64,000 nt of DNA, from contig NZ_MKUD01000045.1 of NCBI RefSeq assembly GCF_001898575.1, positions 11,362-75,361 of the forward strand. The letters run 5' to 3'. Shown one piece after another: positions 6,004 to 59,587 of this stretch. The position numbers and the translations under genes are program-made. The DNA is from Spirosoma sp. 48-14. GTDB taxonomy: Bacteria; Bacteroidota; Bacteroidia; Cytophagales; Spirosomataceae. How positions within the stretch are numbered: position 1 is the first letter of the stretch; the number at the start of each line of letters is the position of its first letter. A model generated the notes under the pieces. It was not told where the DNA came from, ran no database searches, and saw only the letters and a program-made list of their open reading frames with translations.

Positions 6004-6105
6004 AATGAATAATGCACAATGGATAATGGATAATGCATTTTAAAGACTAGCTTTTACAACACAATTCATTATCCATTGTACATTATCCGTTGTGCATTAT
6101 TCATT
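6004..6105. repeat. heptamer-word hairpin spacer (AATGNAY type)
   Basis: Left arm 6004-6038 is five 7-mers: AATGAAT, AATGCAC, AATGGAT, AATGGAT, AATGCAT. Right arm 6064-6105 is six 7-mers ending in CATT or CGTT. The outer 25 bases of the arms pair with one mismatch. It fills almost the whole ggt-DUF819 gap and ends 7 bases before the next ATG. Confidence 0.85.
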
Positions 6106-6112
6106 ACCTCCA

Positions 6113-7363
6113 ATGCCCGCACCGCTCATTACCAACGACGCCATTATTCTGGGAATTTTTCTGGTTCTGTTGACCTTTATTTTCCAGACGTCGCAGTCCA
6201 GCCATCCGTTCTGGCAACAGCTCTACACATATGTGCCTGCCCTCCTGCTCTGCTACATTTTCCCGGCAGCCATGAACAGTTTGGACATCATCTCGGGCGA
6301 GCAGTCAAGTTTATATAAAGTCTCGACCAATTACCTACTTCCTGCGGCTTTGGTGTTGCTTACCTCTACGGCCGATCTGCGAGCAATTGCCCGATTAGGC
6401 CAGAAAGCCCTGATCACGTTTCTGTCCGGAACGGTCGGCATTATTGTAGGAGCCCCTATTGCCTTTGCGCTAGTTATGTGGTTGTTACCCGGTTTTCGGG
6501 AACAGGCAATTACGCACGAGTACTGGAAAGGGCTGGTCACTATTTCAGGTAGTTGGATCGGTGGCAGCAGCAGCCAGTTAGCGCTTAAAGAGATCTACGG
6601 ATGCAGCGAAGAACTTTTTGCCATTATCCTCGTCGTCGATGCGGTCGTCTCGACAAGTTGGACGGCCTGTCTGATTTACGGAGCGGCCTACCGCGACAGG
6701 ATCGATGCGTGGCTTCATGCCGATACGAGTTCCCTTGAAGAAGTAAGGCTGCGGATTCTGGCCTATAAAGAAGAGCCAGACCGCCCTGCTAACCTACTAG
6801 ACCTGAGCACTATTCTGGCACTTGGCTTTGGCGGAGGAGCCTTCGCGCATGCGATGGCCTATGTATTCTCAACCTCGTTACAACCCTACAAAAATGAACT
6901 GGCTACCTATGGGCTAGACCCGTTCACATCCAATTTCCTGTGGGTTGTCATTTTATCGACATCGCTGGGTATTGGACTCTCCTTTACCAGATTGCGTAAA
7001 CTCGAAAAACTCGGCACCACCGATCTGGCGACGCTGTTCGTCTATTTTCTGATCATGACCATCGGAATGCGGCTCGACCTGTCGAACCTGGGCGGCAATC
7101 TGGGGCTATTTCTGGTAGCCGTAATCTGGATGCTGATTCATGTCATTTTCATGCTTATTACGGCACGATTGATTCGAGCCCCCTATTTTTTTGTGGCCGT
7201 AGGCAGTCAGGCTAACATTGGTGGGGTTTCAACGGCGCCAGCGGTAGCATCCGTATTTCATCCAGCTCTGGCTCCAGTAGGTGTATTGCTGGCGGTTTTA
7301 AGCCACGTACTGGGTACATACGGTGGATTGATTACCGCCTGGCTTATGCGCCTGATTGACTAA
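6113..7363 (+). CDS. DUF819 family membrane protein
   Basis: About 416 residues from the ATG at 6113; a GTG at 6092 would start inside the repeat spacer. It is a highly hydrophobic protein with ten or more transmembrane segments and the family pattern LVLLTSTADLRAIARLG, then GSWIGGSSSQLALKE and the late VGSQANIGGVSTAPAVAS repeat. DUF819 proteins resemble permeases of the LrgB/sodium-solute type; no substrate is established. Its neighbour ggt releases glutamate and Cys-Gly in the periplasm, so import of a product is an idea only. Its stop overlaps by 4 bases the stop of the convergent gene. Confidence 0.85.
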   Translation: MPAPLITNDAIILGIFLVLLTFIFQTSQSSHPFWQQLYTYVPALLLCYIFPAAMNSLDIISGEQSSLYKVSTNYLLPAALVLLTSTADLRAIARLGQKALITFLSGTVGIIVGAPIAFALVMWLLPGFREQAITHEYWKGLVTISGSWIGGSSSQLALKEIYGCSEELFAIILVVDAVVSTSWTACLIYGAAYRDRIDAWLHADTSSLEEVRLRILAYKEEPDRPANLLDLSTILALGFGGGAFAHAMAYVFSTSLQPYKNELATYGLDPFTSNFLWVVILSTSLGIGLSFTRLRKLEKLGTTDLATLFVYFLIMTIGMRLDLSNLGGNLGLFLVAVIWMLIHVIFMLITARLIRAPYFFVAVGSQANIGGVSTAPAVASVFHPALAPVGVLLAVLSHVLGTYGGLITAWLMRLID

Positions 7364-8463
7364 TATGGATATAGTTTCTGCTCTATTATGGTTTCAATAC
7401 CTGCTTTAATTAACGTCCGACGTACTAAGCGGCCTTTTGCATCGTAATAGCTCGACTCCTGTGTCCCGTCCTTATTGAAATAAAGTCTATACATAGGCTT
7501 ACCCGAATGCTTATTCACCATACCTATTGACTGGATATTTCCATCACTCCCAGGTAATATATCATATTTTAAGGAGGTTATATCTGTTCCAAGAATCATC
7601 TCATAGTTCGGTATTCCATCCCGATGATAGCTTTTCATATACAGGTGTTGCCCGCCAACTCCATAAATATGAAAGCCCATTAGCTGAGGCCGACTATAAA
7701 TCTGCCTGACCGAATCCAAGGGAATATTTCGGAGCAAACTTGTCATTCTCAACCTGGCCGAATCAGTTTCTATTTCATACCAATGCCAGCTCGAATCTAT
7801 TGGAACTCCATTGCTATAGCTATCCTTGCTTTCTAAATTTCCATCGGCATACCACCAGGTAGCGGCCCCGTCTTTTAGTCCATTTTTATAAAACTCGTTC
7901 CCCCATAGTACGCCGTTCGAATGCCAGACAAGTCGTTCCCCTTCTAGCTTTCCATTTTTATAAAATTCTGTATAGCCTTTCTGTCCACTTGGGTAATACT
8001 CTTCAATTAACCCTTCCTTTACTTGAACAGGTTTCCCTGTTAAATGCCGGATGTGATTCAGCAATTCATCCGTACCGTGATACCGAAAGTCTTTGATTCC
8101 CGCATTATCTTTATATCTAGAGGAATAGTCACAGGCGAATACGGTTGCATACCCTTTGAATTCTTTCGTAAAAATGATCCATTCCTGACCCGGTCGAAGT
8201 CCGATATCACAAGAGCTCCGATACCCGTCCAATAGAAATTTATCAGGTAGTTGACCTTTAAATGCTTCAATTACATCGACAGTAAACTGAGCCGCCGTGG
8301 AACCATCCCAATGGATAGGTTCCAGCGACTGTATTTTAACCAAAGCAACGTAGTTATACGTCTGCAATTTCTCCGCATCTAATGGCTTCAGTCGAGCACA
8401 GTAGCAAGCAACTGCCTTTTGGTGGAAGATGAGACTAAAGCAAAGTAGAAGTAACCTTTTCAT
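7360..8463 (-). CDS. exported protein: NTR/TIMP-like N-terminus plus MORN-type repeats
   Basis: 367 residues with a signal peptide (MKRLLLLCFSLIFHQKAVA) directly followed by CYCARL. A Cys-x-Cys at the mature N-terminus and the downstream VALVKIQSLEPI...VIEAFKG pattern resemble the netrin/TIMP-like (NTR) fold. Residues about 150-225 hold YwqK/MORN_2-type repeats, e.g. EYYPSGQKGYTEFYKNGKL, FYKNGLKDGAATWWYADGNL. The C-terminal third has no recognised domain. MORN_2 proteins are often annotated as antitoxins, but the exported NTR form argues against that here. A and T content is higher than in the neighbours. It lies between the DUF819 gene (convergent) and the efflux operon terminator. Confidence 0.7.
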   Translation of the reverse strand: MKRLLLLCFSLIFHQKAVACYCARLKPLDAEKLQTYNYVALVKIQSLEPIHWDGSTAAQFTVDVIEAFKGQLPDKFLLDGYRSSCDIGLRPGQEWIIFTKEFKGYATVFACDYSSRYKDNAGIKDFRYHGTDELLNHIRHLTGKPVQVKEGLIEEYYPSGQKGYTEFYKNGKLEGERLVWHSNGVLWGNEFYKNGLKDGAATWWYADGNLESKDSYSNGVPIDSSWHWYEIETDSARLRMTSLLRNIPLDSVRQIYSRPQLMGFHIYGVGGQHLYMKSYHRDGIPNYEMILGTDITSLKYDILPGSDGNIQSIGMVNKHSGKPMYRLYFNKDGTQESSYYDAKGRLVRRTLIKAGIETIIEQKLYPY

Positions 8464-8473
8464 AGATCAAATA

Positions 8474-10115: not shown

Positions 10116-10209
10116 AATGGATAATGAAGAATGTAAAATGAATAATTCCGGCTACGAACTAAGAATGCCTACGCAAGACCATTATGCATTTTACATTATC
10201 CATTATCCA
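10116..10209. repeat. heptamer-word hairpin spacer (AATGNAN type)
   Basis: Arms 10118-10146 and 10181-10209 pair over 29 bases with three mismatches. The left arm reads AATGGAT, AATGAAG, AATGTAA, AATGAAT; the right arm reads ATTATGC, ATTTTAC, ATTATCC, ATTATCC. It occupies nearly all of the emrA-emrB intercistronic gap. Confidence 0.85.
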
Positions 10210-11358: not shown

Positions 11359-11452
11359 GTCATTTAGTCGTCATTCGGTGGTCATTACTAGTCATTAATT
11401 GTATTCGCGACGAATCACAACTAAATGACAATCAATGACCATTGAATGACTG
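11359..11452. repeat. tandem-word spacer (GTCATT type, 10-11-nt period)
   Basis: Left arm: four units starting GTCATT at 11359, 11370, 11381 and 11391. Right arm (about 11423-11452): three AATGAC units at 10-11-nt spacing. The arms are complementary with small gaps. It ends at the stop codon of the tolC-like gene and begins 28 bases before the emrA-like start (minus strand). Confidence 0.75.
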
Positions 11453-12781
11453 TTAAAGATTTGAGCCCGTCGCTTTCAACAGACGCTGATAAGCCAGTTG
11501 CGCGTCGACGGTGGCATTGATGACGTTGAGTTGAGCCTGTAACAGAAAACTATTGGCCTCCAGGAGGTCGGTCGAGCCAACCAATCCATTACGAAAACGT
11601 GATTCCGTCAGGCGGTAGTTTTCCTGTGCCTGACCAACAGCGGTACGGATCACATTTTGCTGTTCGAGCGCCAGCTGGTAGTTGTTATACGCCGTAACTA
11701 CTTCGGAGCGAATCTGATCGGTTTGTTGTTGGCCCTGCAAACTGGCCTGATCGATAGCCGTTTGGGCACTGTGCAGCTTTCCTTTCATGTTGTAGATCGA
11801 ACCGATGTTGTACGAAATCCCAGCCCCAACATTCCAGGCACTGATAAATGAATTGGCTTCCGGGAAAAGGCGAGCGGTTGGGTTGATGTAGTTGTATCCC
11901 AGGGATACACCCAGATGCGGATACATACTGCTTTTTGTATTCCGTAGCAGTTCCTGATTCGACTGTACACGTAGGGCATTGGCCTGTACTTCGGGGCGCG
12001 TTTGCACAGCCCGATCCAGAAACGAACCAAGTGATTCGGTCACGGCGGCTGGATTGGCCAGTACCGTATCCACAGCAATCTGCTGATTTTCGGGTAAACC
12101 GACTAGCAGGTTGAAATTATACAGGGCAGTCTGACGGGCTTTCTCAACCTGCAAACGACTCAGATTCAGGTTATTTTTCTGAAGCTGAATTTTCAACACT
12201 TCGTTTGCCGTTACAACGCCTTCTTTCTGTAAATTCTGCGCATCGCGCTCTTTCTCTTCAAACTGCCGAATATTTTGTTCAATAACGCCAACTGAACGGG
12301 CCAGTTTGACAATATTATAGTAGGCATCCGTCACCGTGTATACCAATTCGGCTCGGTTACGCTGCGCATCAAGGTGACTGGCTTTCGCTAATAACTCGGC
12401 CGATTTTTCTGCCGACTTTTCGGCAAAACCGCCAAATACTTCTTTACTGATCGTGGCCCCACCCATCGTTGCATTAAAAGCGCCAGCCGGAATACCAAAC
12501 AGCGCTTTGCCATCGTCGCCCTGTCCGAACGAAAATGGTCCGGTCAGACTATAGCGCGAATACGCAAGTGATGCATTGGCCGTTGGCAGGCTACGATCTT
12601 TTGCTTCCTGCAACCGGGCTTCGGCCGCCTGCGTGCGCGAATCAGCCAGTTTTATGCCTTTGTTGTTCTGGAGGGCTAGTTGAACAGCCTGGTTTAGTGG
12701 CATGATGGTCGGTGCTGTCTGCGCCACTGACCAGCCTATACTTGCCAGCAGAACTCCAACACCTATGATGTACTTTTTCAT
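11453..12781 (-). CDS. TolC-family outer-membrane efflux channel
   Basis: 442 residues with a signal peptide (MKKYIIGVGVLLASIGWSVAQ) and two OEP repeats. They are seen in the paired patterns LNQAVQLALQNNKGIKLADSRTQ-type helix near the N-terminus and DRAVQTRPEVQANALRVQ in the middle. The end has the helical AYQRLLKATGSNL tail. It forms the outer-membrane exit duct for the adjacent emrAB-like pump. Its ATG lies one base after the marR stop codon, so it is in the same transcript and probably translationally coupled. Confidence 0.93.
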   Translation of the reverse strand: MKKYIIGVGVLLASIGWSVAQTAPTIMPLNQAVQLALQNNKGIKLADSRTQAAEARLQEAKDRSLPTANASLAYSRYSLTGPFSFGQGDDGKALFGIPAGAFNATMGGATISKEVFGGFAEKSAEKSAELLAKASHLDAQRNRAELVYTVTDAYYNIVKLARSVGVIEQNIRQFEEKERDAQNLQKEGVVTANEVLKIQLQKNNLNLSRLQVEKARQTALYNFNLLVGLPENQQIAVDTVLANPAAVTESLGSFLDRAVQTRPEVQANALRVQSNQELLRNTKSSMYPHLGVSLGYNYINPTARLFPEANSFISAWNVGAGISYNIGSIYNMKGKLHSAQTAIDQASLQGQQQTDQIRSEVVTAYNNYQLALEQQNVIRTAVGQAQENYRLTESRFRNGLVGSTDLLEANSFLLQAQLNVINATVDAQLAYQRLLKATGSNL

Positions 12782-18233: not shown

Positions 18234-18260
18234 AATTCAATGAATGGGTTACGATGCAAT

Positions 18261-18298
18261 TTATATACAATTTTGTATATATACAAAATTGTATATAA
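18261..18298. repeat. 38-bp perfect palindrome upstream of the ATPase pair
   Basis: TTATATACAATTTTGTATA is followed at once by its exact reverse complement, with no spacer. It lies 28 bases before the start of the first ATPase gene and runs into the fumC terminator repeat. A dimeric regulator operator or a cruciform site is plausible. Confidence 0.85.
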
Positions 18299-19744: not shown

Positions 19745-19755
19745 GAAAATAGGCT

Positions 19756-19809
19756 AAAGAGTGAATGAGCGAAAGAGTGCCTGGGATCAGTAGCGTTTTC
19801 GCTCTTTAA
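19756..19809. repeat. octamer-word spacer in the fumC leader
   Basis: Three 8-mers, AAAGAGTG, AATGAGCG, AAAGAGTG (19756-19779), and a short partly complementary arm TTTTCGCTCTTT (19796-19807). It is the same word type as 25302-25386. It lies between the fumC start and its promoter, so it would be in the 5' untranslated RNA. Confidence 0.7.
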
Positions 19810-24545: not shown

Positions 24546-25300
24546 CTTCCCTTCATAAAATCACTAACTGCCGATTTCAGCAGCCCGGACATTGTGTTCA
24601 GACAGAATAAAACACCCCGATCAATTAACGCTTTAGCCTGATCGCCGGTAGCGGCTGTGGTTCCGGCAATTAGTCCGGCTTTTCGGATTCGATCAACGAC
24701 ACCAGCAATGGTTCGTTTTACTTCATCATGACCGGGTCCATCATGGTACCCCATGCTCATGGCCAGATCGCGTGGCCCAATCACAAATCCGTCAATACCT
24801 TCGACCTGCAACAGTTCATCAAGGTTGTCGATGGCTTCTTTGTCTTCAATTTGAGGCAACACCAGCAGTTGTTCGTTGGCAAAATCGACGTACTCACCCT
24901 GATTCATCGTACCCATCAGGTACTCATTGGCCCGTACAATACCGAATCCCCGCGTTCCTGCAGGTGGATACTTTACCGCTTTTACAAACGCTTCGGCCTC
25001 AGCCGCCGTTCGAACGCCCGGCATCATGATACCCATAACCCCTACATCCAGAAATTGCAGAATCAATTTGGCATCGTTGCTCCGAACACGAGCCAACGGC
25101 GTAATACCACTCACTTCACAAGCCCGCACAATATCCTGCACATGGGCCGTGGTAACGGGGCTGTGTTCGCCATCGATCATATAAAAATCGAGTCCCGAAA
25201 AGCCACAGAGTTCAGCAATGGTTGGATCAGTACTGTTGGCAAGAACACCCAGAACAGGCTGGTTATTTTTAAGGCGGGTTTTGACAATATTTTGCTTCAT
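24542..25300 (-). CDS. HpcH/HpaI-family aldolase
   Basis: 252 residues from the ATG at 25300 (MKQNIVKTRLKNNQPVLGV); a start at 25366 would translate the octamer repeat. It is a class II metal-dependent (beta/alpha)8 aldolase for 2-keto-3-deoxy sugar acids or 2,4-dihydroxyhept-2-ene-dioate. Marks: FYMIDGEHSPV, ARVRSNDAKLILQFLDVGVMGIMMP, the metal-ligand Glu in LPQIEDKEAI, and GFVIGPRDLAMSMGY. The usual product is pyruvate plus an aldehyde. Both ends touch hairpin repeats. It lies between the McrC-like and HDAC-like genes on the same strand. Confidence 0.9.
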   Translation of the reverse strand: MKQNIVKTRLKNNQPVLGVLANSTDPTIAELCGFSGLDFYMIDGEHSPVTTAHVQDIVRACEVSGITPLARVRSNDAKLILQFLDVGVMGIMMPGVRTAAEAEAFVKAVKYPPAGTRGFGIVRANEYLMGTMNQGEYVDFANEQLLVLPQIEDKEAIDNLDELLQVEGIDGFVIGPRDLAMSMGYHDGPGHDEVKRTIAGVVDRIRKAGLIAGTTAATGDQAKALIDRGVLFCLNTMSGLLKSAVSDFMKGR

Positions 25301-25301
25301 A

Positions 25302-25386
25302 GGTAAAGAGTGAAAGAGCGAAAGAGTGAATGAGCGATGAACTTGGCTACCGGAACTTTCGCTCATTCACTCTTTCACTCTTTACC
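25302..25386. repeat. octamer-word hairpin spacer (AGAGTGAA type)
   Basis: Left arm 25302-25337 reads as GGTA plus four 8-mers (AAGAGTGA-type words); right arm 25359-25386 is its exact complement lacking one 8-mer. It begins one base after the aldolase start codon (minus strand) and fills the gap to the HDAC-like gene. Confidence 0.85.
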
Positions 25387-25405
25387 TATGCAAGATACGA
25401 CTGAA

Positions 25406-40805: not shown

Positions 40806-40917
40806 AATGAATAATGTAAAATGAACCAATGAAAAATGGGGGAAGTGACATGAAGGATAAACGACGAGTTGCCAACCGTTAGCTGCCGATTCATTCCACA
40901 TTATTCATTTATTTCAT
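40806..40917. repeat. heptamer-word hairpin spacer (AATGNAN type)
   Basis: Arms 40806-40825 and 40890-40909 pair over 20 bases with two mismatches. Left words: AATGAAT, AATGTAA, AATGAAC. Right words: ATTCATT, CCACATT, ATTCATT. It fills the gap before the transketolase N-terminal gene; the ATG is at 40923. Confidence 0.8.
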
Positions 40918-47841: not shown

Positions 47842-47909
47842 TTCGCCCGAATGCTCTTTACAGAAGCTAACCGTTAGCTAACTCCCTACGTTTAGCCACT
47901 AACTATTTC

Positions 47910-47917
47910 TATATTTG
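47910..47917 (+). promoter_or_regulatory. -7 element upstream of the GT2 gene
   Basis: TATATTTG fits TAnnTTTG; it would give a leader of about 105 bases before the ATG at 48026. The -33 position is not clear. Confidence 0.4.
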
Positions 47918-48025
47918 CAGTATTGATAGGGATGAACTATCGGGTTGGCAATGTCTGTTGGTCCAACTTATTTTAAACCTGTTGGCAAACGACAGACGTA
48001 CCGCCAACGCCCTAAAGTACACTGA

Positions 48026-48787: not shown

Positions 48788-48792
48788 TTAGT

Positions 48793-48848
48793 GCTATAGG
48801 ATATAGGAGGTTTTGCTGTAAACGTAATTTATCATATATCCTATATCT
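48793..48848. repeat. heptamer-word hairpin spacer (ATATAGG type)
   Basis: TATAGGATATA (48795-48805) pairs with TATATCCTATA (48835-48845). Left words CTATAGG, ATATAGG; right words ATATATC, CTATATC. It lies between the GT2 gene and the flavoprotein gene. Confidence 0.65.
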
Positions 48849-48862
48849 GCTCCAACTTAATC

Positions 48863-50254: not shown

Positions 50255-50260
50255 ATAATT

Positions 50261-50331
50261 TAGTCGATAATCTTCTGTCGATAGTCAATAGTAAGTCATT
50301 GTTTATACTTACTATTGACTATCGATTATTT
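50261..50331. repeat. heptamer-word hairpin spacer (TAGTCGA type)
   Basis: 19-bp perfect arms at 50278-50296 and 50307-50325. Left words from 50261: TAGTCGA, TAATCTT, CTGTCGA, TAGTCAA, TAGTAAG. It ends 14 bases before the next ATG (50339). Confidence 0.85.
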
Positions 50332-50338
50332 TTAATTT

Positions 50339-53056
50339 ATGAAACGAAACATCTGGATCGGTGCCGGAGCAATAGTGGTGCTACTGATAGGCTGGTGGGT
50401 CTATCGGCAGTTCGTACCGGCATCCCGTACAGTTGGTTCGTTGATCCCTCCGGGTTCGCTGATGATTCTGACCAGCGACCGCCTGCAGGATACGATTTCA
50501 GCCCGTGTCCTTCGGACAGAGATGTCGCTCCGGCAGATACCTGTTTTTGACGAAGCCCGTCGGCGACTTGATCGCTTTCTTTACGCTACTGCCGACTCCG
50601 CCACGGTTATTAAATTCATATCTGGTCGGCAGGTACGCTACTCGCTTCATTCCCTCTCAAAAACAACACTCGATTTCATCTTTTATATTCCAATTACGGA
50701 TAAAGATGAGTCATTTCTACACCGACTTACCACCCCTGACCCTCGCCAGTACAGGGTACTCAGTCACACATTTTCGGGGGAGAAAATCCTGGATTTAGTT
50801 TCCCGCATGAATGAACCGATTGGCTCATTTATTCTGACGGACGGTTTCCTGGTAGGCAGTGTATCGGGGATTCTAATTGAGAATGTGGCGAAACGAATGC
50901 ACCAGTCCCTCAAGTTCTCTCAGGCTGAACCGGACTTTCGGGTCGATGCCGACCACCTGGCTGGTGTATCGGTTCGGCCAGAAGTACTTCAGGCGTTATT
51001 CAGCAATGCAGGCTCACTGGTTCGTTTGTTTCTGCCCGAGGAACTCAACTTACAGTTTCGTCAATCGGCTTCGCGTTCACACCTGATCGGCTACGCAGTT
51101 GACCAGATTGGCAATCGACGTGACGTGGCCGACTTATTTGCCGACCAGACACCCCAGCGAATTCAACACGCAAACCTGATTCCACAAACGACAGCTACCC
51201 TCTATCACATAGCTATCAGTGATGCCGAGCATTTTGGTAGTTCACTTAGCCGTTTACTTGGATCAGCGTCCAGCGATTTTCTGCGCGATCGGTTCGACCA
51301 AATTAAACCAGCAGCCCAAACACTCTACAAATCGTTGGGTAGCGACCTACTGCTAGCCCGTCTGGAATCGCCAACGGGCGCCCTCCGACAGGTACTTATT
51401 CTAACAGGTAAAGACGGCAAAAAACTGGCTAACTTATATCAACTGGCCGCTTTTCAGGCAGGTGCTAAATCACCAGCCTCTCCTAAAGACTATCTTGGTC
51501 ATAAACTTTTACAGTTACCTGTTCCAGAACTGCCAGCGTCCTTATTTAGTAGCCTTTTTGCAGGCTTTTCACAGAGCTGGGTCACTTTGCATAACAATGC
51601 GGTAATTGTGGCAAATAATGAAGAAGCGATGCAGGACTATCTCCAGCAGGTACAGCGTGGAACTGTCTGGACAGCGGATACACGTCAGGCTGAGCTACTC
51701 AACACAACGCTTCGTCCCGCCAATTTCACTGCCCTGGTTCGGTTAAATCGGGCACAAACGACCGTGCCTCCAACCTGGCCGTTAGCCTGGCAAAATCTGC
51801 TGGATCAGGTCGACCCCGCTACAGGCAGTACAACGCTGTCTAATCTGGAAAACATGGCCTACCAGGCCAGTTACGGCAACGAAAACATTCAATCGACTGT
51901 TATTTTGGGACGTACGACCCGACGGGCCAGTCGAGCGGTTCTTAATAAGTTGCTGCTGCGAAAGAAGGTTGAATTTGAAGCCCCACTCATTGCTGCTCCC
52001 ATCGTAGCGGGAAATTTGAGTGATAGTTCGGCTCAGTTCTACGCACAAAATGAGGCCGGTGAGTTTGTACTGGTAACGCCGAAGGGAGAAAAAATTGTTC
52101 AGAGCCGCACCGACGGCCCTATCCGCAGTAACGCGCTGGCAGTCGATTTCCTGAACAATGGACGACTCCAATACCTGTTCATGACCGATCGAACGCTCTA
52201 CGTAGCCGATCCGATCCGTACCCGTAATGAAGTTACGTTGCAGGCGATTCCGCTACCTCAGGGTCTCGATCCGTCTTACCTGGCTCGTCCACGGGGAAGC
52301 CAGCAACGCAATCTGGTAGCGCTGGCGGCTCACCAGGATGGCCATATTTATGCCCTTGATCGGCAGCGTAAGGCATTCATCCGGATTATGACAGCCCCAC
52401 GAAAAGGACAGTTGCAGTTACCTTTTCAAGTCATGGCCACTTCGTCGGGCATGAATGTGCTGGGTATTCAGGCCGACGGCACGCTGAACTACTGGCGTGA
52501 AAATGGTAGTGAATTCCCTCATTTCCCGGCCCGTATCGAACGAAAAAATGAAGACGAGTCAGAAATCCGATTTGTAGGTCCAGCCCTGATTCCTACGGGT
52601 CAAACGTTGATTCAGACCATTGCCGATGAAGGCCAGTTGTTTTCGATCAACACCAACGGGCTTATTGCCAAACGGACTCAGCTATACCGCCCGGTTCGGC
52701 GTGGCTCGTTCCGGCTATTTCCCGATGAAGAACAAACGAACTGGCTGCTTATTCGGGCGGCCGATACCGAAGTAACCATCCTGAACCAACAGGGCCAGCG
52801 GATGTTCGACGTTCGTGCTTTGCAATCTGAGCGTAACAACGTGCGTTACCATCGGCTTGGTGCAGGTATCGAACTCATCAGTGTGCAATCGGGAGGGTTT
52901 ACCACGTTGTATGACCTAAACGGTCGAATTATCGGGGAACGCCCCATTCCGAGTGATTTTCCAGTAGTTTTGCAGTTCGACGAACGATCAAACGAATTAT
53001 CTATTTTGAGCGGAATCAAGCAGGCCGTTCAGTTATTCAGCATTAGATTGAGGTAA
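50339..53056 (+). CDS. large membrane-anchored hypothetical protein
   Basis: 905 residues, not recognised. One N-terminal transmembrane anchor (about 5-25) precedes a periplasmic region of two parts. Residues about 35-560 are mixed alpha/beta with repeated HLAGVSVRPEVLQAL-like helices. Residues about 580-905 look like propeller or beta-repeat segments (NEAGEFVLVTPKGEKIVQSR, DGHIYALDRQRKAFIRIM, LNQQGQRMFDVRAL). It starts just after a heptamer hairpin and is followed closely by the SGNH gene, so it belongs to the glycan run. A structural or scaffolding role at the envelope is only a guess. Confidence 0.6.
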   Translation: MKRNIWIGAGAIVVLLIGWWVYRQFVPASRTVGSLIPPGSLMILTSDRLQDTISARVLRTEMSLRQIPVFDEARRRLDRFLYATADSATVIKFISGRQVRYSLHSLSKTTLDFIFYIPITDKDESFLHRLTTPDPRQYRVLSHTFSGEKILDLVSRMNEPIGSFILTDGFLVGSVSGILIENVAKRMHQSLKFSQAEPDFRVDADHLAGVSVRPEVLQALFSNAGSLVRLFLPEELNLQFRQSASRSHLIGYAVDQIGNRRDVADLFADQTPQRIQHANLIPQTTATLYHIAISDAEHFGSSLSRLLGSASSDFLRDRFDQIKPAAQTLYKSLGSDLLLARLESPTGALRQVLILTGKDGKKLANLYQLAAFQAGAKSPASPKDYLGHKLLQLPVPELPASLFSSLFAGFSQSWVTLHNNAVIVANNEEAMQDYLQQVQRGTVWTADTRQAELLNTTLRPANFTALVRLNRAQTTVPPTWPLAWQNLLDQVDPATGSTTLSNLENMAYQASYGNENIQSTVILGRTTRRASRAVLNKLLLRKKVEFEAPLIAAPIVAGNLSDSSAQFYAQNEAGEFVLVTPKGEKIVQSRTDGPIRSNALAVDFLNNGRLQYLFMTDRTLYVADPIRTRNEVTLQAIPLPQGLDPSYLARPRGSQQRNLVALAAHQDGHIYALDRQRKAFIRIMTAPRKGQLQLPFQVMATSSGMNVLGIQADGTLNYWRENGSEFPHFPARIERKNEDESEIRFVGPALIPTGQTLIQTIADEGQLFSINTNGLIAKRTQLYRPVRRGSFRLFPDEEQTNWLLIRAADTEVTILNQQGQRMFDVRALQSERNNVRYHRLGAGIELISVQSGGFTTLYDLNGRIIGERPIPSDFPVVLQFDERSNELSILSGIKQAVQLFSIRLR

Positions 53057-53106
53057 AGCAGCCAAGTGTAGGGTTACCTACATCAACACTTTACCACTCC
53101 ATACAT

Positions 53107-54108
53107 ATGCGTGTACTACGTTACCTTATTTTAGTGATCGCTATTCTGCTCTGGGGAGGTGGCCTTTCGACTACGCTATCACGGTGGTTATACAGTATTG
53201 GCGTTATTGTTGACGACTATCGATTTGGCGATTTATATCGTTTGTCGGCTCTCCCGCAGTTTAAAGTACCTCAGCCTCAATGTCCTCCCTCAAACCGATC
53301 TAGTGACACAGCCTCAGCACAGTTATATTTGATTGGCGATAGCTTTTCAGAGCCTCAAAGGCTGAGCCAGTCCGATTTTCAGGTGAGTCATTACCAGCGA
53401 GTGGGTTGGGACAATCAGCAACGCATACAGCTCGATCCATCAAAGCGTAATCTCTTACTGATTGAATCTGTAGAACGGCACGTTCGGGAGCATTTCGCCA
53501 AACACATTACCGAATATTGTGTTGTACAGGACACAACGAAGAATCCGACGCCAAAGCCAACGCTGGCCCAGCGGATCAGTTCTGAACTTCACCGGACCGA
53601 TGTAGAGGAACGGCTCGAATCGGCCTTGTTCAGTGGCAACTGGGCATTCTGGTTTAAAGAGTTGAAAGCTACCCTCACCCTGAACTGGTTCGACCGACCC
53701 AATGCCAGCGTTAGCCTGTCCCGAAACCACCAGCATATTTTTTTGCATAGCGATACCGATTCAGCCAATGTTCTAAACTCCTCTTTTTCAACCTTATCGG
53801 ATCGGGAAGTCAATACGCTGGTGGACAGCATCAATTCGGTGGCAAAGCGATACCAGCAATTGGGCTTCGATGCTGTTTACCTGTCGCTTATTCCCAATAA
53901 AGCGACTATTCTGGAACGGGAACGCACTGACTACAACCATCTGATTGAGCGAATTCAAAACAACCCCAGGTTAACAGTACCGACGATCAACACGTATACT
54001 CATTTTCTTGAAGCTCCCCAATCGCCTTATCTAAAAAGCGATACGCACTGGAATTGCGAAGGTCGGGCTATCTGGCTGGACCTGGTAAGGCAGAGGTTAC
54101 AGTTATAA
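53107..54108 (+). CDS. AlgX/AlgJ-like SGNH-fold protein
   Basis: 333 residues with an N-terminal membrane or signal segment (about 5-20). The SGNH Ser lies in YLIGDSFSEP (Asp78, Ser79), and the Asp-x-His pair is in KSDTHWNCEGRAIWLD (Asp312, His314), the alginate O-acetyltransferase AlgJ/AlgX arrangement. Such proteins place acetyl groups on exported polysaccharides in the periplasm. The acyltransferase-3 gene upstream could supply the acyl donor. The middle of the protein is divergent, so activity is inferred from these motifs only. Confidence 0.72.
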   Translation: MRVLRYLILVIAILLWGGGLSTTLSRWLYSIGVIVDDYRFGDLYRLSALPQFKVPQPQCPPSNRSSDTASAQLYLIGDSFSEPQRLSQSDFQVSHYQRVGWDNQQRIQLDPSKRNLLLIESVERHVREHFAKHITEYCVVQDTTKNPTPKPTLAQRISSELHRTDVEERLESALFSGNWAFWFKELKATLTLNWFDRPNASVSLSRNHQHIFLHSDTDSANVLNSSFSTLSDREVNTLVDSINSVAKRYQQLGFDAVYLSLIPNKATILERERTDYNHLIERIQNNPRLTVPTINTYTHFLEAPQSPYLKSDTHWNCEGRAIWLDLVRQRLQL

Positions 54109-54271
54109 AGTACTTAATGATAGTGCCCGGTCGATTTCTTCATTTGTTTGAGATAACGAGCGTTAGTTGCAGTAATTCGCGAAGAAGCCCCTTCAACTTC
54201 CCATAGTTCGTCGGCAATAAGCTTCTTCCAAACTACATTTGTCAGTCAGATTTTGAGATACGAATAAAACG

Positions 54272-54886
54272 TTGGACGATCCTAAACGCATTGTACGGCA
54301 AGGGTATGACCGTCTGGGCAGCTCGTACCGGACTTTCTTTGAGAAGACGGATTCAAAACGATATGTGAACTGGCTAACCGATTTTGTCCAGCGTCTTCCT
54401 ATCGGGAGTAGTGTACTTGAACTGGGCTGTGCCGATGGGATTCCAACCGCCCAATACCTGAGCCAGTTTACCGATTATCTGGGCATCGATCTCTCTCCCA
54501 TACAAGTCGAATTGGCCCGCCAGAACGTCCCTCAGACTCGCTTTGAAGTTGCTGATATGTCGGCCCTCTCCTTTCCTGCCGAATCATTCAATGGCGTTGT
54601 TGCCTTATATTCCATCATCCACCTTCCGCTGGTTGAGCAGCCAACTTTATTTAAAGCTGTTTACCAATGGCTCAAACCGGGTGGTTACTTTTTATGCATA
54701 ACAGGAGCTGGCGAATGGACAGGTAGCGAATCTAACTGGATTGAGCCTGACACTGAGATGTACTGGAGCCACGCCGATGCCAATACGTACCGAAACTGGT
54801 TCAGCGAAACAGGTTTTATCCTAGTAGATAGTTTCTTCGTACCCGAAGGTAGCGGAGGCCACACGTACTTCTTACTGGCAAAGTAG
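54272..54886 (+). CDS. class I SAM-dependent methyltransferase
   Basis: 204 residues from a TTG at 54272; no ATG or GTG fits the start. It has the SAM-binding motif I LELGCADGIPTAQYL (about 54-68), the acidic end of strand 2 (LGIDLSP), FEVADMSALSFP and LKPGGYFLC. The fold resembles ubiquinone/sugar methyltransferases (Methyltransf_11/25). It is cytosolic. It follows the SGNH gene after a 163-bp gap and is the last plus-strand gene of the glycan run; O-methylation of a sugar is possible. Confidence 0.8.
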   Translation: MDDPKRIVRQGYDRLGSSYRTFFEKTDSKRYVNWLTDFVQRLPIGSSVLELGCADGIPTAQYLSQFTDYLGIDLSPIQVELARQNVPQTRFEVADMSALSFPAESFNGVVALYSIIHLPLVEQPTLFKAVYQWLKPGGYFLCITGAGEWTGSESNWIEPDTEMYWSHADANTYRNWFSETGFILVDSFFVPEGSGGHTYFLLAK

Positions 54887-54953
54887 TATAAAGCCTATCG
54901 CTCAGCAGACGTTACAAGTCTACAATTATCTGTACTACAGCTGATTCGTGAAT

Positions 54954-55238
54954 TTAATCGACCAGGTATGGTAAGTATGGCTCCAGTTTATCGGTCCCCC
55001 GAAAGGCTGAGACCTGATTCAATTGATTGTTGTAGGCATCGTAGCGAAGTTCGACGTAGAAATCGCGAAGATTATAGAGCAGAAAAATATTGTCGCCCTC
55101 GTAGCGGTTGGCCAGAATGTCACCGGCAAAATACAGCGTGTCGAGTTGCTGCTCGGCGGGGAGTTTGGTAAAATCGGTGGGTTGCATAAACGAACGGGGT
55201 TGACAGGCGAAATAAGCAAAAGTCAGGCTCCCCACCAA
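54954..55238 (-). CDS. hypothetical protein, 94 aa
   Basis: Not recognised. A short hydrophobic start (MVGSLTFAYFAC) could be a truncated lipoprotein signal. The remainder is soluble: LPAEQQLDTLYFAGDILANR, then NIFLLYNLRDFYVELRYDAY, a pattern seen in small Bacteroidota hypothetical proteins. It is the only minus-strand gene in this stretch. The start is uncertain. Confidence 0.5.
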   Translation of the reverse strand: MVGSLTFAYFACQPRSFMQPTDFTKLPAEQQLDTLYFAGDILANRYEGDNIFLLYNLRDFYVELRYDAYNNQLNQVSAFRGTDKLEPYLPYLVD

Positions 55239-55348
55239 ATGCGCCAGCCGACTTTATATAATACAACTAAAACACTAAAGCCTATATATAAAACATACAC
55301 CTAGCTAAATAAGCTTATTTCAGGCAGTTCCATAAAACAACAGGAACA

Positions 55349-55407
55349 CGGATTATTATGATTTTCAGGATTAGATCAACGGTAATTCTAAAAATCATAA
55401 CAATCCG
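55349..55407. repeat. imperfect palindrome in a 289-bp gap
   Basis: CGGATTATTATGATTTT (55349-55365) pairs with AAAATCATAACAATCCG (55391-55407), 17 bp with one mismatch. The inner part again pairs loosely (GGATTAGA / TAATTCTA). The rest of the gap 55239-55527 shows nothing else. Confidence 0.55.
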
Positions 55408-55527
55408 TATTCTAAGTGTAGTATACCAAGCTCCAACTGATTCTAATCAAGTCGGCTACTGTGTCAAATCATGGGTTATCGATGCGAATCCAGCTTGTTT
55501 TGTCCTGACTAACAAGCTCTTTGCTCC

Positions 55528-56355
55528 ATGAAAACTATTCTGGTCCCCACCGACCTAAGCCCTATCACAATCTATGCCCTCGATGTAGCGGCTGATATAG
55601 CCCGCACCTACGATTCTGAAATCATTCTTCTCCATACCGTATTGTATGGCGTTCCGTCTTTAGGAATAGCCGATAGCGTTACGGGCCTTTCTCTGGATAT
55701 GGGGCCTCTCTATGCAGATGCCTGGAAAGAAGCCGAAAAAGCCCTTCATGAATTGGTAGCTAACCCGGCCTATGCCGATGTGACCATCAAACCCGTACTA
55801 GGCAGCAACATAGAAGGGCTCATCAACGCCATTAATGCGCAACAGGCCGATCTGATTGTGCTGGCATCGAAAGGGGCATCTGGTTTACTGGAATGGATTG
55901 AAGGTTCGCATGCTGAATTCATTACCCGTTTCGCTACCTGTCCGGTACTGGTTGTTAAGGAGCCTGTAGGCCGGTTCAATCCTCAGGAGATTGTGTTTGG
56001 CATCGATCTGGATGAGGAATTAAAAAAGCCACATTTATTCCCGTTTCGGCTCGATGATCAGTTTTGCCGACAATATGTGTATGTAGTTACCCCTACCGAC
56101 AATCGCCAGCCTGAAGGGATTCGGGAGTGGGTAGCCGACTTCACCGCAGCAAACGACATTGACCACTACAACCTCAAAATTGTCCACGACCACACCGTAC
56201 CCGATGGCATTCTGGAGTATGCCCATTCCATTCATGCCGATCTTATTGTGTTGTATACCCGTGGGTATACAGGCCTTCGACACTGGATACAGGGTAGCGT
56301 GGCCGAAGATGTTTTAAATCATGCCGACATGCCAGTCCTGATTATGCGGGCTTAA
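55528..56355 (+). CDS. tandem universal stress protein
   Basis: 275 residues made of two USP domains (about 1-145 and 150-275). The first starts KTILVPTDLSPITIYALD and ends with VLASKGASGLLEWIEGSHAEFITRFATCPVLVV, the ATP-binding G-2x-G-9x-G(S/T) region. The second ends LIVLYTRGYTGLRHWIQGSVAEDVLNHADMPVLIM. Tandem USPs are common in Bacteroidota and bind ATP or respond to stress. It is a single gene, convergent with the oxidoreductase gene 10 bases away. Confidence 0.92.
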   Translation: MKTILVPTDLSPITIYALDVAADIARTYDSEIILLHTVLYGVPSLGIADSVTGLSLDMGPLYADAWKEAEKALHELVANPAYADVTIKPVLGSNIEGLINAINAQQADLIVLASKGASGLLEWIEGSHAEFITRFATCPVLVVKEPVGRFNPQEIVFGIDLDEELKKPHLFPFRLDDQFCRQYVYVVTPTDNRQPEGIREWVADFTAANDIDHYNLKIVHDHTVPDGILEYAHSIHADLIVLYTRGYTGLRHWIQGSVAEDVLNHADMPVLIMRA

Positions 56356-56365
56356 ACTTGAGCAA

Positions 56366-57463
56366 TTAACCCAGTTTTACTTCTTTCCCTGACTTCGCTG
56401 CGGCATAGATCGCTTCAACAACCCGTATATCACGAAGCCCCTCTTCGCCCGGAACCAGCAGCGGCTTTTTTGCCAGGATGGCGGCCGCATCGTCGTCCAT
56501 TTGCATGGCCTGTTGCATAGGTACTTCGTAGGGGTGTTCTATGCGACCTCCATTGCTCCAGACACCTTTCTGGCCATTATAACCCGAATACGGTTCCATA
56601 TAGAGTGTTCCTTTCGATCCCGTCACATGCAGGTAATTCATATTCATGCCGTAACTGGTTTGTAGAGCAGCTCGTGCGCCACTCGGGAAAACGAGCTGGA
56701 CCATTGAGGTTTCGTCCAGACCATTCTTGTAGACGTTTGGCCGGGAAGTATACTGCTGGGCTGTTACCGCTATCGGTTCTTCGCCCGTAGCCAGTCGAGC
56801 GCCCTGCACTACGTATACACCCATGTCGTACATAACCCCACCGCCCATTTCTTTTTTCTGCTTCCAGTGATCAGTACGCGCGTCATAGTAAGCAGCTGAG
56901 CAACTAACCATCAGCACATTACCAATTTTTCCTCCACGCAGCGCCTTCGTCCACTCCTGCGTGTTGGGTTCATGATGCAATCGGTAACCAATGGCCAGCG
57001 AAACCTTACTTTTTGCACAGGCGTCGATCATGTTCTGACACTCTTTTGCCGTCACAGCCATTGGTTTTTCGCACCATACATGCTTACCCGCTTTGGCAGC
57101 CCGAACCACATACTCCTCATGCATCGACGGGGGCAACACGACATACACGACATCGATGTCAGGATTGTTGACAATCTGATCGAAGGTCTGGTACGAATAA
57201 ATGTTCTTATCTGGAATGTTGTACTGCTTCTTCCACTTCTCCGCCTTTTCGGGCGTACCTGTCACGATACCAGCCAGGTAGCAGTTCTTTGTTTTCTGGA
57301 GGGCCGGGGCCAGCAGGTCGGTGCTGTAGTACCCTAAGCCAACCAGAGCAACCCCCAACTTATCTTTGGCAGATCGGGTAGCCGTCCAAAGAGCATTAGG
57401 TGCGAGCGTGGTAGCCAGGCCGGTAACGCCAGCGGTATGAAGAAACGTTCTACGTGATGTCAT
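56366..57463 (-). CDS. Tat-exported Gfo/Idh/MocA-family oxidoreductase
   Basis: 365 residues. The start MTSRRTFLHTAGVTGLA is a twin-arginine signal, so the folded, cofactor-loaded enzyme is exported. The Rossmann domain begins VALVGLGYYSTDLLAPAL, and the EKP motif (CEKPMAVTAKECQNMIDACA) is intact. The glucose-fructose-oxidoreductase-like C-terminal domain follows. It acts on a sugar or cyclitol with tightly bound NAD(P). The substrate is unknown. It is divergent from the AguB-type gene, with a one-armed heptamer repeat in the gap. Confidence 0.92.
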   Translation of the reverse strand: MTSRRTFLHTAGVTGLATTLAPNALWTATRSAKDKLGVALVGLGYYSTDLLAPALQKTKNCYLAGIVTGTPEKAEKWKKQYNIPDKNIYSYQTFDQIVNNPDIDVVYVVLPPSMHEEYVVRAAKAGKHVWCEKPMAVTAKECQNMIDACAKSKVSLAIGYRLHHEPNTQEWTKALRGGKIGNVLMVSCSAAYYDARTDHWKQKKEMGGGVMYDMGVYVVQGARLATGEEPIAVTAQQYTSRPNVYKNGLDETSMVQLVFPSGARAALQTSYGMNMNYLHVTGSKGTLYMEPYSGYNGQKGVWSNGGRIEHPYEVPMQQAMQMDDDAAAILAKKPLLVPGEEGLRDIRVVEAIYAAAKSGKEVKLG

Positions 57464-57468
57464 AGTTA

Positions 57469-57496
57469 TTTCAGGTTTGCGATTTGAGGTTTCAGG
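57469..57496. repeat. single-armed 7-mer repeat (TTTCAGG type)
   Basis: Four 7-mers in tandem: TTTCAGG, TTTGCGA, TTTGAGG, TTTCAGG, directly upstream of the oxidoreductase start. A weak partner, CTGAAAC, lies near 57539. It is the same word style as the hairpin spacers without a full second arm. Confidence 0.6.
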
Positions 57497-57591
57497 TCGT
57501 CAGGTGTAGGCCATTCGTATGGCAGCTACCAGGAAAACTGAAACTTTAGTAGACAAACTCAAAAAGTTTTCTGTTCTAACTATGTACCTCC

Positions 57592-57599
57592 TAATTTTG
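57592..57599 (+). promoter_or_regulatory. possible leaderless promoter of the AguB-type gene
   Basis: TAATTTTG (TAnnTTTG) ends 4 bases before the ATG at 57604. A TTT lies 21 bases upstream in place of the -33 TTG. Confidence 0.35.
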
Positions 57600-57603
57600 T
57601 CGC

Positions 57604-58473
57604 ATGTCTAAAAAAGTCAATATCGGTTTGGTGCAGATGAGTTGCTCGGCGGATGTCGAAGCCAATATTCAGAAAGCCATCGACCACATTCGGGAAGCCG
57701 CTCAAAAAGGGGCCCAGATCGTTTGCTTACAGGAATTATTCACCTCGCTTTACTTCTGCGACGTCGAAGATCACCATAATTTCAGTCTGGCCGAAGCCAT
57801 TCCCGGCCCCACCACTGAGCGGCTGGGCAAAGTAGCTGGCGAATTGGGTGTGGTCATTATTGCTTCGCTGTTCGAAAAGCGGGCGCAGGGCCTATATCAC
57901 AACACAACGGCCGTACTGGATGCCGATGGGGCTTATCTGGGTAAATACCGAAAGATGCACATTCCTGATGATCCGGGCTACTACGAAAAATTCTACTTCA
58001 CGCCCGGCGATCTGGGGTATAAAGTATTCGATACTAAATTTGCCCGCATCGGCGTATTGATCTGCTGGGATCAGTGGTATCCTGAAGCAGCCCGTATTAC
58101 CTCGCTGATGGGCGCCGAAATTTTGTTCTATCCAACGGCTATTGGCTGGGATACGAACGAACCGGACCCCAAACAGAACGAAGAGCAATATAACGCCTGG
58201 CAAACGATCCAGCGTAGCCACGCTATTGCCAATGGGGTCCATGTCGTGTCGGTGAACCGCGTAGGTCGTGAAGCCGATCAGCAATTCTGGGGCGGGTCGT
58301 TCGTTGCCAATCCATTCGGTTCGTTATTGTATCTGGCCCCACACGATCAGGAGCTCGTTCATGTACAAACGGTCGACCTCGAATTGTCCGAAAAATACCG
58401 CACTACCTGGCCTTACTTCCGCGACCGACGCATCGACTCCTACCAACCCATCACAAAACGATACATTGATTAA
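57604..58473 (+). CDS. aguB: carbon-nitrogen hydrolase, N-carbamoylputrescine amidase type
   Basis: 289 residues, the usual length. The nitrilase-superfamily triad is Glu44 (CLQELFTSLYF), Lys117 (KYRKMHIPD) and Cys154 (VLICWDQWYPEAAR). The ICWDQWYPE signature is typical of AguB, which hydrolyses N-carbamoylputrescine to putrescine, CO2 and ammonia (EC 3.5.1.53). The usual partner, agmatine deiminase (aguA), is not adjacent; a ROK kinase gene follows instead. If aguA is absent from the genome, a beta-ureidopropionase-like role would be an alternative. Confidence 0.88.
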   Translation: MSKKVNIGLVQMSCSADVEANIQKAIDHIREAAQKGAQIVCLQELFTSLYFCDVEDHHNFSLAEAIPGPTTERLGKVAGELGVVIIASLFEKRAQGLYHNTTAVLDADGAYLGKYRKMHIPDDPGYYEKFYFTPGDLGYKVFDTKFARIGVLICWDQWYPEAARITSLMGAEILFYPTAIGWDTNEPDPKQNEEQYNAWQTIQRSHAIANGVHVVSVNRVGREADQQFWGGSFVANPFGSLLYLAPHDQELVHVQTVDLELSEKYRTTWPYFRDRRIDSYQPITKRYID

Positions 58474-58547
58474 TGTATGAAGTATGATATAGGATGTATG
58501 AAAGGCCACTACATCATATATCTTATATCATACTTCATACATCACAC
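58473..58547. repeat. heptamer-word hairpin spacer (ATGTATG type)
   Basis: Left words from 58473: ATGTATG, AAGTATG, ATATAGG, ATGTATG. Right words from 58513: ATCATAT, ATCTTAT, ATCATAC, TTCATAC, ATCACAC. Arms 58473-58491 and 58524-58542 pair perfectly over 19 bp. It starts on the last base of the aguB-type stop codon and ends 7 bases before the ROK ATG. Confidence 0.88.
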
Positions 58548-58554
58548 CTTCACT

Positions 58555-59493
58555 ATGAGACTTGGTATTGAAATAGGCGGAACAAAATTGCAGTTGTTTA
58601 CAAGCGATGAGCCTGGCCAGATAACGCAACGCTTCCGATTAGCCATCGATCCTGCTAAAGGGGCCGAAGGGATTCTGGCACAAATTGCCTCAACGATCAA
58701 CCAGATCACTACACCGATACAATCGATTGGGGTTGGCTTCGGTGGCCCGGTCGACTGGCAAACGGGTCGAATTGCGACTTCGCATCAGATTGGCGGCTGG
58801 TCGGGCTTCAACCTGGGCGAATGGCTCCAGCAGCAGGTTCCCGGCGCTCAGGTACGGGTCGAGAACGATGCCAATGTAGCCGCCCTGGGCGAAGCGCTTC
58901 GTGGCGTAGCTACCGGATTTCGGAACGTCTTTTATGTGACCCTGGGCAGTGGTGTCGGTGGAGGCATGGTCGTTGATCGACAATTGTATCATGGAGCTCT
59001 GCCCGGCGAAGCTGAAATCGGTCATTTATGGCTTGTACCGCCCAGTGAGTCGAGCGACGGACAAACCATTGAACAAACCGTTTCGGGTTGGGCAGTCGAT
59101 CAACAGATTCGGTCGTTACTCCCGCAGCTACCCGATGATTCCTATTTAAAGCAGGCCGTACAACAGGCACATGCGGGTGGAACGACTGGCAAAGAAGCCC
59201 GGTTTTTACATCCTGCCTACGAGGCCAGTGACCCGGTAGCCAAAATGCTGATCGAACAGATTGGCTCGGTACTGGCGCTTGGCCTATCGCATGTTACCCA
59301 TTTGTTTCATCCCGATGCCATCGTACTAGGCGGAGGCCTTTCACTCATTGGTGAACCGTTGCGGGCGGCTGTTCGGCAGGCTTTACCCCGCTTTGTGATG
59401 AAAGCCTTCCATCCTGCCCCCATCGTTTTACTCGCTAAACTCGGTGAAGATGCCGTACCCATTGGTGCTTTAGAATTAATGGGTGAAGAGTAA
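58555..59493 (+). CDS. ROK-family sugar kinase
   Basis: 312 residues from the ATG at 58555; an in-frame ATG at 58477 lies inside the hairpin and is rejected. It has the N-terminal ATP-phosphate motif LGIEIGGTKLQLF, the central GFGGPVDWQTGR and VRVENDANVAALGEA (catalytic Asp in ENDAN), YVTLGSGVGGG, and the AIVLGGGLSLIGEPL C-terminal motif. The full Cys-rich zinc motif of many ROK proteins is absent. It phosphorylates a hexose or aminosugar. The SIS isomerase gene lies about 100 bases downstream and may act on its product. Confidence 0.9.
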   Translation: MRLGIEIGGTKLQLFTSDEPGQITQRFRLAIDPAKGAEGILAQIASTINQITTPIQSIGVGFGGPVDWQTGRIATSHQIGGWSGFNLGEWLQQQVPGAQVRVENDANVAALGEALRGVATGFRNVFYVTLGSGVGGGMVVDRQLYHGALPGEAEIGHLWLVPPSESSDGQTIEQTVSGWAVDQQIRSLLPQLPDDSYLKQAVQQAHAGGTTGKEARFLHPAYEASDPVAKMLIEQIGSVLALGLSHVTHLFHPDAIVLGGGLSLIGEPLRAAVRQALPRFVMKAFHPAPIVLLAKLGEDAVPIGALELMGEE

Positions 59494-59587
59494 TGGATAA
59501 TGTAGAATGAATAATTTTTTGGTCCTTCTTCATTATCCTTTATCCATTACTCATTATCCATTACCCATTGTTCATTATTAATTACCC
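59491..59587. repeat. heptamer-word hairpin spacer (ATTATCC type)
   Basis: The right side is eight consecutive 7-mers, 59532-59587: ATTATCC, TTTATCC, ATTACTC, ATTATCC, ATTACCC, ATTGTTC, ATTATTA, ATTACCC. The left side reads TAATGGA, TAATGTA, GAATGAA from 59491, where its first bases are the ROK stop codon. TAATGGATAATG pairs perfectly with the right side. Confidence 0.88.

Follow-up and report, generated by a model that had tools for sequence, protein, structure and literature searches.

Predicted word-built hairpins behind stop codons of Spirosoma can keep their pairing while their wording changes

Here we report that intergenic gaps of Spirosoma sp. 48-14 carry long predicted hairpins, a good part of them with arms made of tandem, degenerate words of seven or eight nucleotides. 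The work began with a 64,000-nt stretch of this genome (G000:C45:11362-75361; the window), in which a sequence-only reading had listed eleven spacers as one family of word hairpins. Our survey shows predicted stems to be enriched in gaps, directly behind stop codons and without a U-tract, with a periodic subclass that is poor in C in its 5' arm; genome comparison shows that predicted pairing is kept under sequence change, that loops invert and that some length changes are whole words. We propose, with a probability of about 0.55, that these are mostly intercistronic, 3'-end RNA hairpins of Spirosoma and its relatives, whose pairing would be kept by selection together with arm-to-arm copying and whose words would be supplied by slippage. 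A hairpin can persist at its site under changing words, probably because its halves are copied from each other.

The G000 assembly comprises 8.68 Mb in 89 contigs. Stems were surveyed in positions 1-400000 of contig C1 and all of C45, 850 kb in all and close to 10% of the genome, in gaps of 25-500 nt that were each set against a shuffle; a score of at least 14 defined a long stem, and counts below refer to this survey unless another sample is named. Gene calls came from our own script, so that start codons are approximate and stops exact. Matching stretches were taken from G149 (median flank identity 92.7%) and from G157, which is S. panaciterrae, and four more distant genomes (76-78% identity) were sampled at 100 kb each. 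The protein encoded at 48863-50254 finds its best match in Spirosoma, S. panaciterrae standing at 97%. A strict threshold for tandem runs caught few of the degenerate words, and a window count and a stem finder were used instead.

Long stems occupy 122 of 467 gaps, none of the 467 shuffles and one of 2014 coding windows. The arms are periodic in 47 of the 122, compared with two when arm columns are shuffled jointly, and the best lag is 8 in 20 of these, 7 in 16, 14 in five, 9 in three and 6, 10 or 11 in one each; tandem heptamers in gaps are thereby confirmed, lag 7 or 14 being best in 21 of the 47. When 242 gaps of at most 500 nt (464 kb, 10 shuffles) were scored for at least 21 self-matches in 28, seven gaps passed at lag 7 and eleven at lag 8, with a shuffle mean of 0; lags 14, 16 and 21 were raised too, lag 4 gave one gap, and lags 5, 6, 9, 10 and 11 gave none. 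The sequence-only reading had staked its family beforehand on an excess of period-7 spacers over shuffled sequence, and an excess at periods 7 and 8 is present in the 464-850 kb scanned; the whole 8.68 Mb was covered by searches for single words alone.

The eleven listed spacers were also tested singly, with 500 dinucleotide shuffles apiece. Nine have stems beyond chance: no shuffle matched the real stem at 6004, 10116, 40806, 50261, 58473, 59491, 25302 or 11359, and the stem of 11 pairs at 48793 gave p 0.014. The stems at 57469 (p 0.24) and 19756 (p 0.07) lie within chance on these shuffles. Periodicity alone reached p<=0.01 in six spacers (6004, 10116, 48793, 57469, 19756 and 25302) and was weaker in the other five (40806, 0.16; 50261, 0.038; 58473, 0.078; 59491, 0.090; 11359, 0.034).

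The placement of stems relative to genes is uneven. They stand in 37 of 73 convergent gaps, 75 of 309 codirectional and 10 of 85 divergent ones. Codirectional stems start a median of 5 nt past the stop codon; 63 of the 75 are closer to the stop and 12 to the start, and 55 lie within 15 nt of the stop, where even placement would give 45%. Periodic stems divide into 37 codirectional, 6 convergent and 4 divergent, non-periodic ones into 38, 31 and 6 (p 0.0008 for the codirectional and convergent split). In the periodic codirectional class the median start is 3 nt after the stop and the median end 18 nt before the called start, and 30 of the 37 begin within 10 nt of a stop. The codirectional setting and the contact with stop codons noted in the window extend beyond it to most of the periodic class; the listed spacers at 57469 and 19756 are divergent. 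Following the periodic codirectional stems, T averages 2.8 in the next 8 nt; since five or more T occur there in four of 37, these stems are, with those exceptions, without a U-tract. A terminator pattern scan of 47000-64000 gave 21 sites where 18.7 were expected, and Rfam at its gathering score gave no match within the window.

The periodic hairpins are also strongly polar with respect to the strand. G exceeds C in the 5' arm of 46 of the 47 and falls below it in one; among non-periodic stems the corresponding numbers are 45 and 27, with three equal. The 5' arm of periodic stems is composed of 40% A, 28% G, 25% T and 7% C, A exceeding T in 35 of 47, and the 3' arm is C-rich and G-poor. A start-codon origin of this polarity was considered and rejected, because convergent (6/6) and divergent (4/4) periodic stems share it. 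Stems of Escherichia coli K-12 (score at least 10), a small control, had no polarity, with 5 against 7 of 13. Stems of related loci have G above C in 39 of 42 5' arms and below it in one, a set that is not independent because 23 come from one spacer. The window hairpin at 11363-11457 is without polarity (12 G against 11 C).

Comparison of G000 with G149, which took in 341 gaps, provided 312 measurable gap pairs, with a stem in 81 and 78 gaps, respectively, and in both members of 67 pairs. Alignment identifies the same hairpin in 48 of the 67, the other 19 not being so classed, and in 25 further gaps a stem of at least 14 occurs on one side alone. Within the 48 shared hairpins the substitution rate is 0.080 in arms, 0.171 in loops and 0.122 in flanks. 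After 32 gapped pairs were set aside, 1118 aligned base pairs remained: 1010 unchanged, 44 doubly changed to another Watson-Crick pair, 62 changed on one side (41 broken, 21 wobble) and two broken by change on both sides. Changes of any kind on both sides number 48, compared with 8-19 when partners are slid by 1-4 positions, and 26 of the 44 Watson-Crick double changes are unreachable through G-U.

Loops and lengths change in ways that bear on the same question. Among 52 loop pairs, 32 align directly, five in inverted orientation and 15 neither way, so that inversion affects 5 of the 37 loops that can be aligned. Four of these cases are clear (null p 0 to 0.002), and one of the five falls within the window, at 25302-25386. 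In periodic hairpins arm pairs with arm at 92% of positions, whereas adjacent words within an arm match at 74%, and indels in periodic gaps include lengths of 7, 8, 14 and 21 nt, as whole-word slippage predicts. An earlier suggestion that some mechanism copies short words and inverts them draws support from the closer match between arms than between neighbouring words, from the joint base changes and from the inverted loops.

Among more distant relatives, form can outlast sequence. Twelve window gaps were compared across 26 family loci, gaps too short for a stem being scored as having none. Spacer 50255-50338 holds a stem of at least 12 in 23 of 25 comparable loci and of at least 14 in 20 of 25, and its arms are scarcely more similar than after shuffling (median 0.23 vs 0.22; similarity exceeds 0.7 in 3% of 276 pairs and in none when shuffled). 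The other eleven gaps gave stems of at least 12 in 0/7, 0/7, 0/7, 1/8, 1/14, 2/15, 1/15, 0/22, 2/23, 7/26 (48788-48862) and 5/25 loci, and in three of them too-short gaps make up 12/15, 10/22 and 12/25. The conserved spacer, with its unrelated arms, and the placement behind stops both favour the other cause offered at the outset, selection for an intercistronic hairpin. The closest genome shares stems at 45 of 53 own-stem gaps, compared with 8 of 158 others, and G157 at 9 of 16, compared with 3 of 47; much of this sharing is plain shared ancestry. The four genomes at 76-78% identity agree in direction, on small numbers (p 0.083, 0.038, 0.072 and 0.038). With shuffles at 0 throughout, gaps of related loci carry stems in Spirosoma (34/149), the Fibrisoma/Fibrella group (17/86), SUN052 (4/11), Siphonobacter (12/42), the Flectobacillus group (13/52), metagenome-assembled genomes of Cytophagales (2/11), Chitinophagaceae and similar (8/71), Aquirufa (0/21) and other phyla (4/55).

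The words themselves form a limited set. AATGNAN, searched as AATGNATAATGNATAATG with two mismatches, occurs 366+377 times in G000 against 2+2 for the reversed pattern, and builds the arms at four of the eleven listed spacers and in 11 of the 47 periodic hairpins; a crude dictionary in which the first match was kept assigns the rest to AAAGAGNG (10), TTGAATGA-type (9), ATGTATGA-type (4), AGGAGNN (3), GGTTTANGG (1) and other words (9). A few word dialects recur across loci and differ between species. The claim that the word differs per locus therefore survives in the sense that words are not all the same; strictly locus-specific vocabularies are not supported. AATGNAN is plentiful in some Spirosoma (G149 231+252, G131 269+254, G121 222+210, G039 102+99) and near background in other genomes of the genus. 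It finds a match in 147 of 150 family genomes, yet in many of them the reversed control is matched just as often, and there are genomes in which it is the reversed pattern that abounds (G137, 98+56). Of 118 genomes of the phylum outside the family, most show it at background level or close to it, with exceptions in G199 (37+76), G203 (24+30) and G234 (28+53), where the control is 0. AAGTTNTA words are abundant in G154, G156, G055, G121, G158 and G161 and near background in G000 (1+2); AAAGAGNG is more broadly spread but has a high reversed control (327+331 vs 77+91 in G000).

These observations suggest the following model. Selection would keep a stem behind certain genes, where it may shield the upstream mRNA from 3' exonucleases or act as a weak attenuator between cistrons, and what counts would be the pairing and the C-poor 5' arm rather than the words. 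At the DNA level, template switching during replication (quasipalindrome correction) may copy each arm into the other, and would thereby restore pairing in one step and at times flip the loop. Slippage by 7 or 8 nt would lengthen arms and create words, and lineages would drift into different dialects. The polarity may be the outcome of selection on nascent RNA: a C-poor 5' arm would be unable to form G-C pairs with itself, and C-rich RNA makes a weaker RNA-DNA hybrid than G-rich RNA, so that the 3' arm may help the stem to close behind polymerase. More tentatively, and with considerably less confidence, the hairpins could be a distinct class of element in which form is inherited and letters are not. 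The 5' arm, poor in C and nearly reduced to three letters, would consist of 7- or 8-nt words and be copied as the complementary arm; the hairpin would hold to fixed gene ends on the time scale of the family as its vocabulary is replaced, and its polarity would make it a boundary of transcription or mRNA decay without a U-tract.

Several results weigh against the proposal of selected, mutually copied RNA hairpins. The 30 non-periodic shared hairpins carry 38 of the 44 double changes, and the 18 periodic ones contribute six (none via G-U) against 22 single changes; joint change as a hallmark of periodic stems is accordingly rejected, and arm copying is best shown for the wider set. One of the five loop inversions is weak (p 0.012), 15 of the 52 loop pairs align neither way, recombination between arms could also invert a loop, and the length of many indels in periodic gaps is not that of whole words. 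The family-wide conservation is that of one spacer, in a test that counts too-short gaps as stemless, and the genomes at 76-78% identity offer 13-27 comparable gaps each, with p<0.05 in two of four tests. The template-switch model, in the part of its description available to us (PMC8794818), does not explain the polarity: it expects an excess of G-C together with U-A, and here G exceeds C while A exceeds T, so another cause is needed. The predicted role in RNA is the least tested step.

The joint changes and loop inversions need no selection, and template switching and slippage could by themselves make and keep functionless hairpins that are tolerated behind stop codons, a purely mutational origin to which the predominance of periods 7 and 8 and the frequency of one-sided presence (25 of 92 gap pairs with a stem) also lend weight. 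We consider this somewhat unlikely: blind copying would not be expected to yield a 46:1 polarity, arms change less than flanks, and one spacer keeps its stem in nearly all relatives when the other gaps of the stretch do so in 0-30%. The placement behind stops and the convergent excess of stems as a whole would suit dedicated terminators of this lineage, in which a polar stem would end transcription without a U-tract, alone or with Rho. Rho prefers C-rich, G-poor RNA, as in the 3' arm, and is encoded in G000; within the stem, however, that arm would be hidden from it. The periodic class is mainly codirectional, so full termination would often split operons, and 33 of 37 stems have no U-tract, which leaves this reading, judged from predicted stems, improbable.

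The recurrence of a few dialects at many loci, their patchiness among genomes and the different hairpins found in some orthologous gaps would fit a mobile repeat family, REP- or MITE-like, whose copies enter new gaps and then diverge. The order of AATGNAN words in arms of different loci is slightly more similar than shuffled (0.706 vs 0.631; 9 hairpins, 36 pairs), and for this reason some copying between loci may have taken place. As a general account this is very improbable, because one layout is common to many unrelated words and loops from different loci resemble each other no more than after shuffling (6 of 4851 pairs score at least 10, as do 6 in shuffles). Pairing kept under changing sequence is an old question, for which these genomes give many natural bacterial replicates, with loop inversions as visible footprints of template switching. 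If mRNA ends are where the polar, word-built stems act, a boundary signal would be present that searches by sequence miss, since what is kept is form rather than sequence; word hairpins would also connect tandem heptamers with RNA structure.

Table 1. Word hairpins and related spacers of the window (positions in the 64,000-nt stretch)
Feature	Position	Arms	Setting	Remark
Hairpin absent from first list	4149..4236		codirectional gap	stem 19.5
AATGNAN 7-mer hairpin	6004..6105	6004-6035 / 6074-6105	codirectional gap 6001-6112	stem 26, 0/500 shuffles as good
AATGNAN 7-mer hairpin	10118..10209	10118-10146 / 10181-10209	codirectional (minus)	stem beyond shuffles
GTCATT-word hairpin, lag 11	11363..11457	11363-11396 / 11424-11457	codirectional (minus)	stem beyond shuffles
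8-mer words AAAGAGTG with short partner	19755..19808		divergent gap	stem p 0.07
AAAGAGNG 8-mer hairpin	25298..25390	25298-25330 / 25358-25390		loop inverted vs G149
AATGNAN hairpin, loop 64	40806..40909	40806-40825 / 40890-40909		stem beyond shuffles
TATAGGATATA hairpin, 11 pairs	48795..48845			p 0.014
TCGATAGTCAATAG 7-mer hairpin	50278..50325			spacer with stem in 23/25 relatives, words differ
Hairpin absent from first list, CAGGATT-like words	55344..55412		divergent gap	stem 19.5
TTTCAGG words, weak partner arm	57485..57548		divergent gap	stem p 0.24
ATGTATGA-type hairpin	58473..58542	58473-58501 / 58514-58542	overlaps stop codon
AATGNAN hairpin	59488..59552	59488-59511 / 59529-59552	overlaps stop codon	more words up to 59587

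Individual spacers (Table 1) changed in different ways between strains. At 6004-6105 the 5' arm is shorter in G149 by 14 nt, or two words; at 10118-10209 G149 has the same hairpin and G157 unrelated sequence; at 48795-48845 the stem is longer in G149 (by marked alignment) and in G157; and at 58473-58542 both genomes carry similar words with both arms altered. Further unlisted stems of the window lie at 2494-2548, 18260-18299 and 30778-30823, with a weaker one at 28112-28143. That at 18260-18299 is an AT-rich, near-perfect palindrome in a codirectional gap, with 19-bp arms and a 2-nt loop, possibly a regulator site; that at 30778-30823, kept in G149 and G157, is a terminator-like stem between convergent genes, its arms containing an A-run and a T-run. 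CAGGATT-like words recur in C1 at 93470-93640 (L074:13470-13640), and Fibrella aquatilis (L030) has a very long CAGGATT-like hairpin at the orthologue of spacer 50255-50338.

Some hairpins whose outer words differ have in common an inner stem that resembles GGCTGACGC...GCGTCAGCC, found in 6 of the 122 G000 hairpins and carried by L015, L016, L018, L023 and L028 (at the orthologue of 50255-50338), L119:9671-9838 and L121:15720-15826. A shared tip, GCTGACG, was rejected as the core of the element, being present in 6 of 122. A second class of hairpin with recurring sequence (CATTTCGACGCAGGAGAAATCTC or GTCATCCCGACGGCAGGAGGGATCTTCGG type) also occupies gaps, for example L117:10720-10893, and in G149 fills the orthologue of the gap at C45 255244-255387, which in G000 holds an AATGNAN hairpin. 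Loss of the SbcCD nuclease as a cause of the many long stems is not supported: SbcD scores above its cut-off, and next to it lies an SbcC relative matched over its full length, though its score falls below a curated cut-off that only one of 14 control genomes reaches.

In REP and MITE-like palindromic repeats a single sequence is copied many times per genome; the hairpins resemble them in being intergenic palindromes present many times per genome and differ in that their loops are not shared between loci. Cyanobacterial STRR elements are direct repeats of heptamers. TAACTGA repeats, described in Beggiatoaceae, cyanobacteria and five Bacteroidetes, lie in some cases within larger heptamer mixes, and heptanucleotides are the commonest class in most repeat-rich genomes, as the portion of that work available to us reports (PMC4679880, MacGregor, the latter point citing Mrazek et al. 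2007). Our hairpins likewise place tandem words of seven bases in gaps, at times together with other heptamers, and, judging by the same portion, TAACTGA repeats also differ between strains mostly by 7-nt steps and are patchy among genomes. There, however, one word is repeated directly, in BOGUAY mostly at sites immediately before start codons and with one indirect repeat (PMC4679880); the hairpins have two complementary arms, several dialects including 8-mers, a position behind stops and polarity.

A mechanistic parallel is with quasipalindromes, in which template switching yields homogenised arms and inverted spacers (PMC8604942), and with RNA hairpins that template switching is proposed to create and keep (PMC8794818). 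Arm homogenisation, joint changes and spacer inversion are common to these and to the present case; the parts of both papers available to us cover coding repeats of yeast and RNA genes, whereas the hairpins here are bacterial and intergenic, with tandem words and a C-poor 5' arm. A literature search found no paired-arm word hairpins in Spirosoma or Bacteroidota among the matches listed, which is weak evidence of novelty because most subscription journals were outside it; the text of an inverted-repeat survey in bacteria (PMC10434271) names neither Spirosoma nor Cytophaga-like groups. Bacterial stem-loops crowd behind stop codons and in convergent gaps, according to the accessible parts of PMC1590033 and PMC13155455, and the hairpins share with these 3' stem-loops and intrinsic terminators the position behind stops and, for stems as a whole, the convergent excess. 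Unlike intrinsic terminators they have no U-tract, and they have longer stems, periodic arms, strong polarity and a periodic class that is mainly codirectional. The feature is borne out and extends past the window, and it joins 3'-end stem-loops, template-switch inverted repeats and heptamer slippage in one polar, word-built form.

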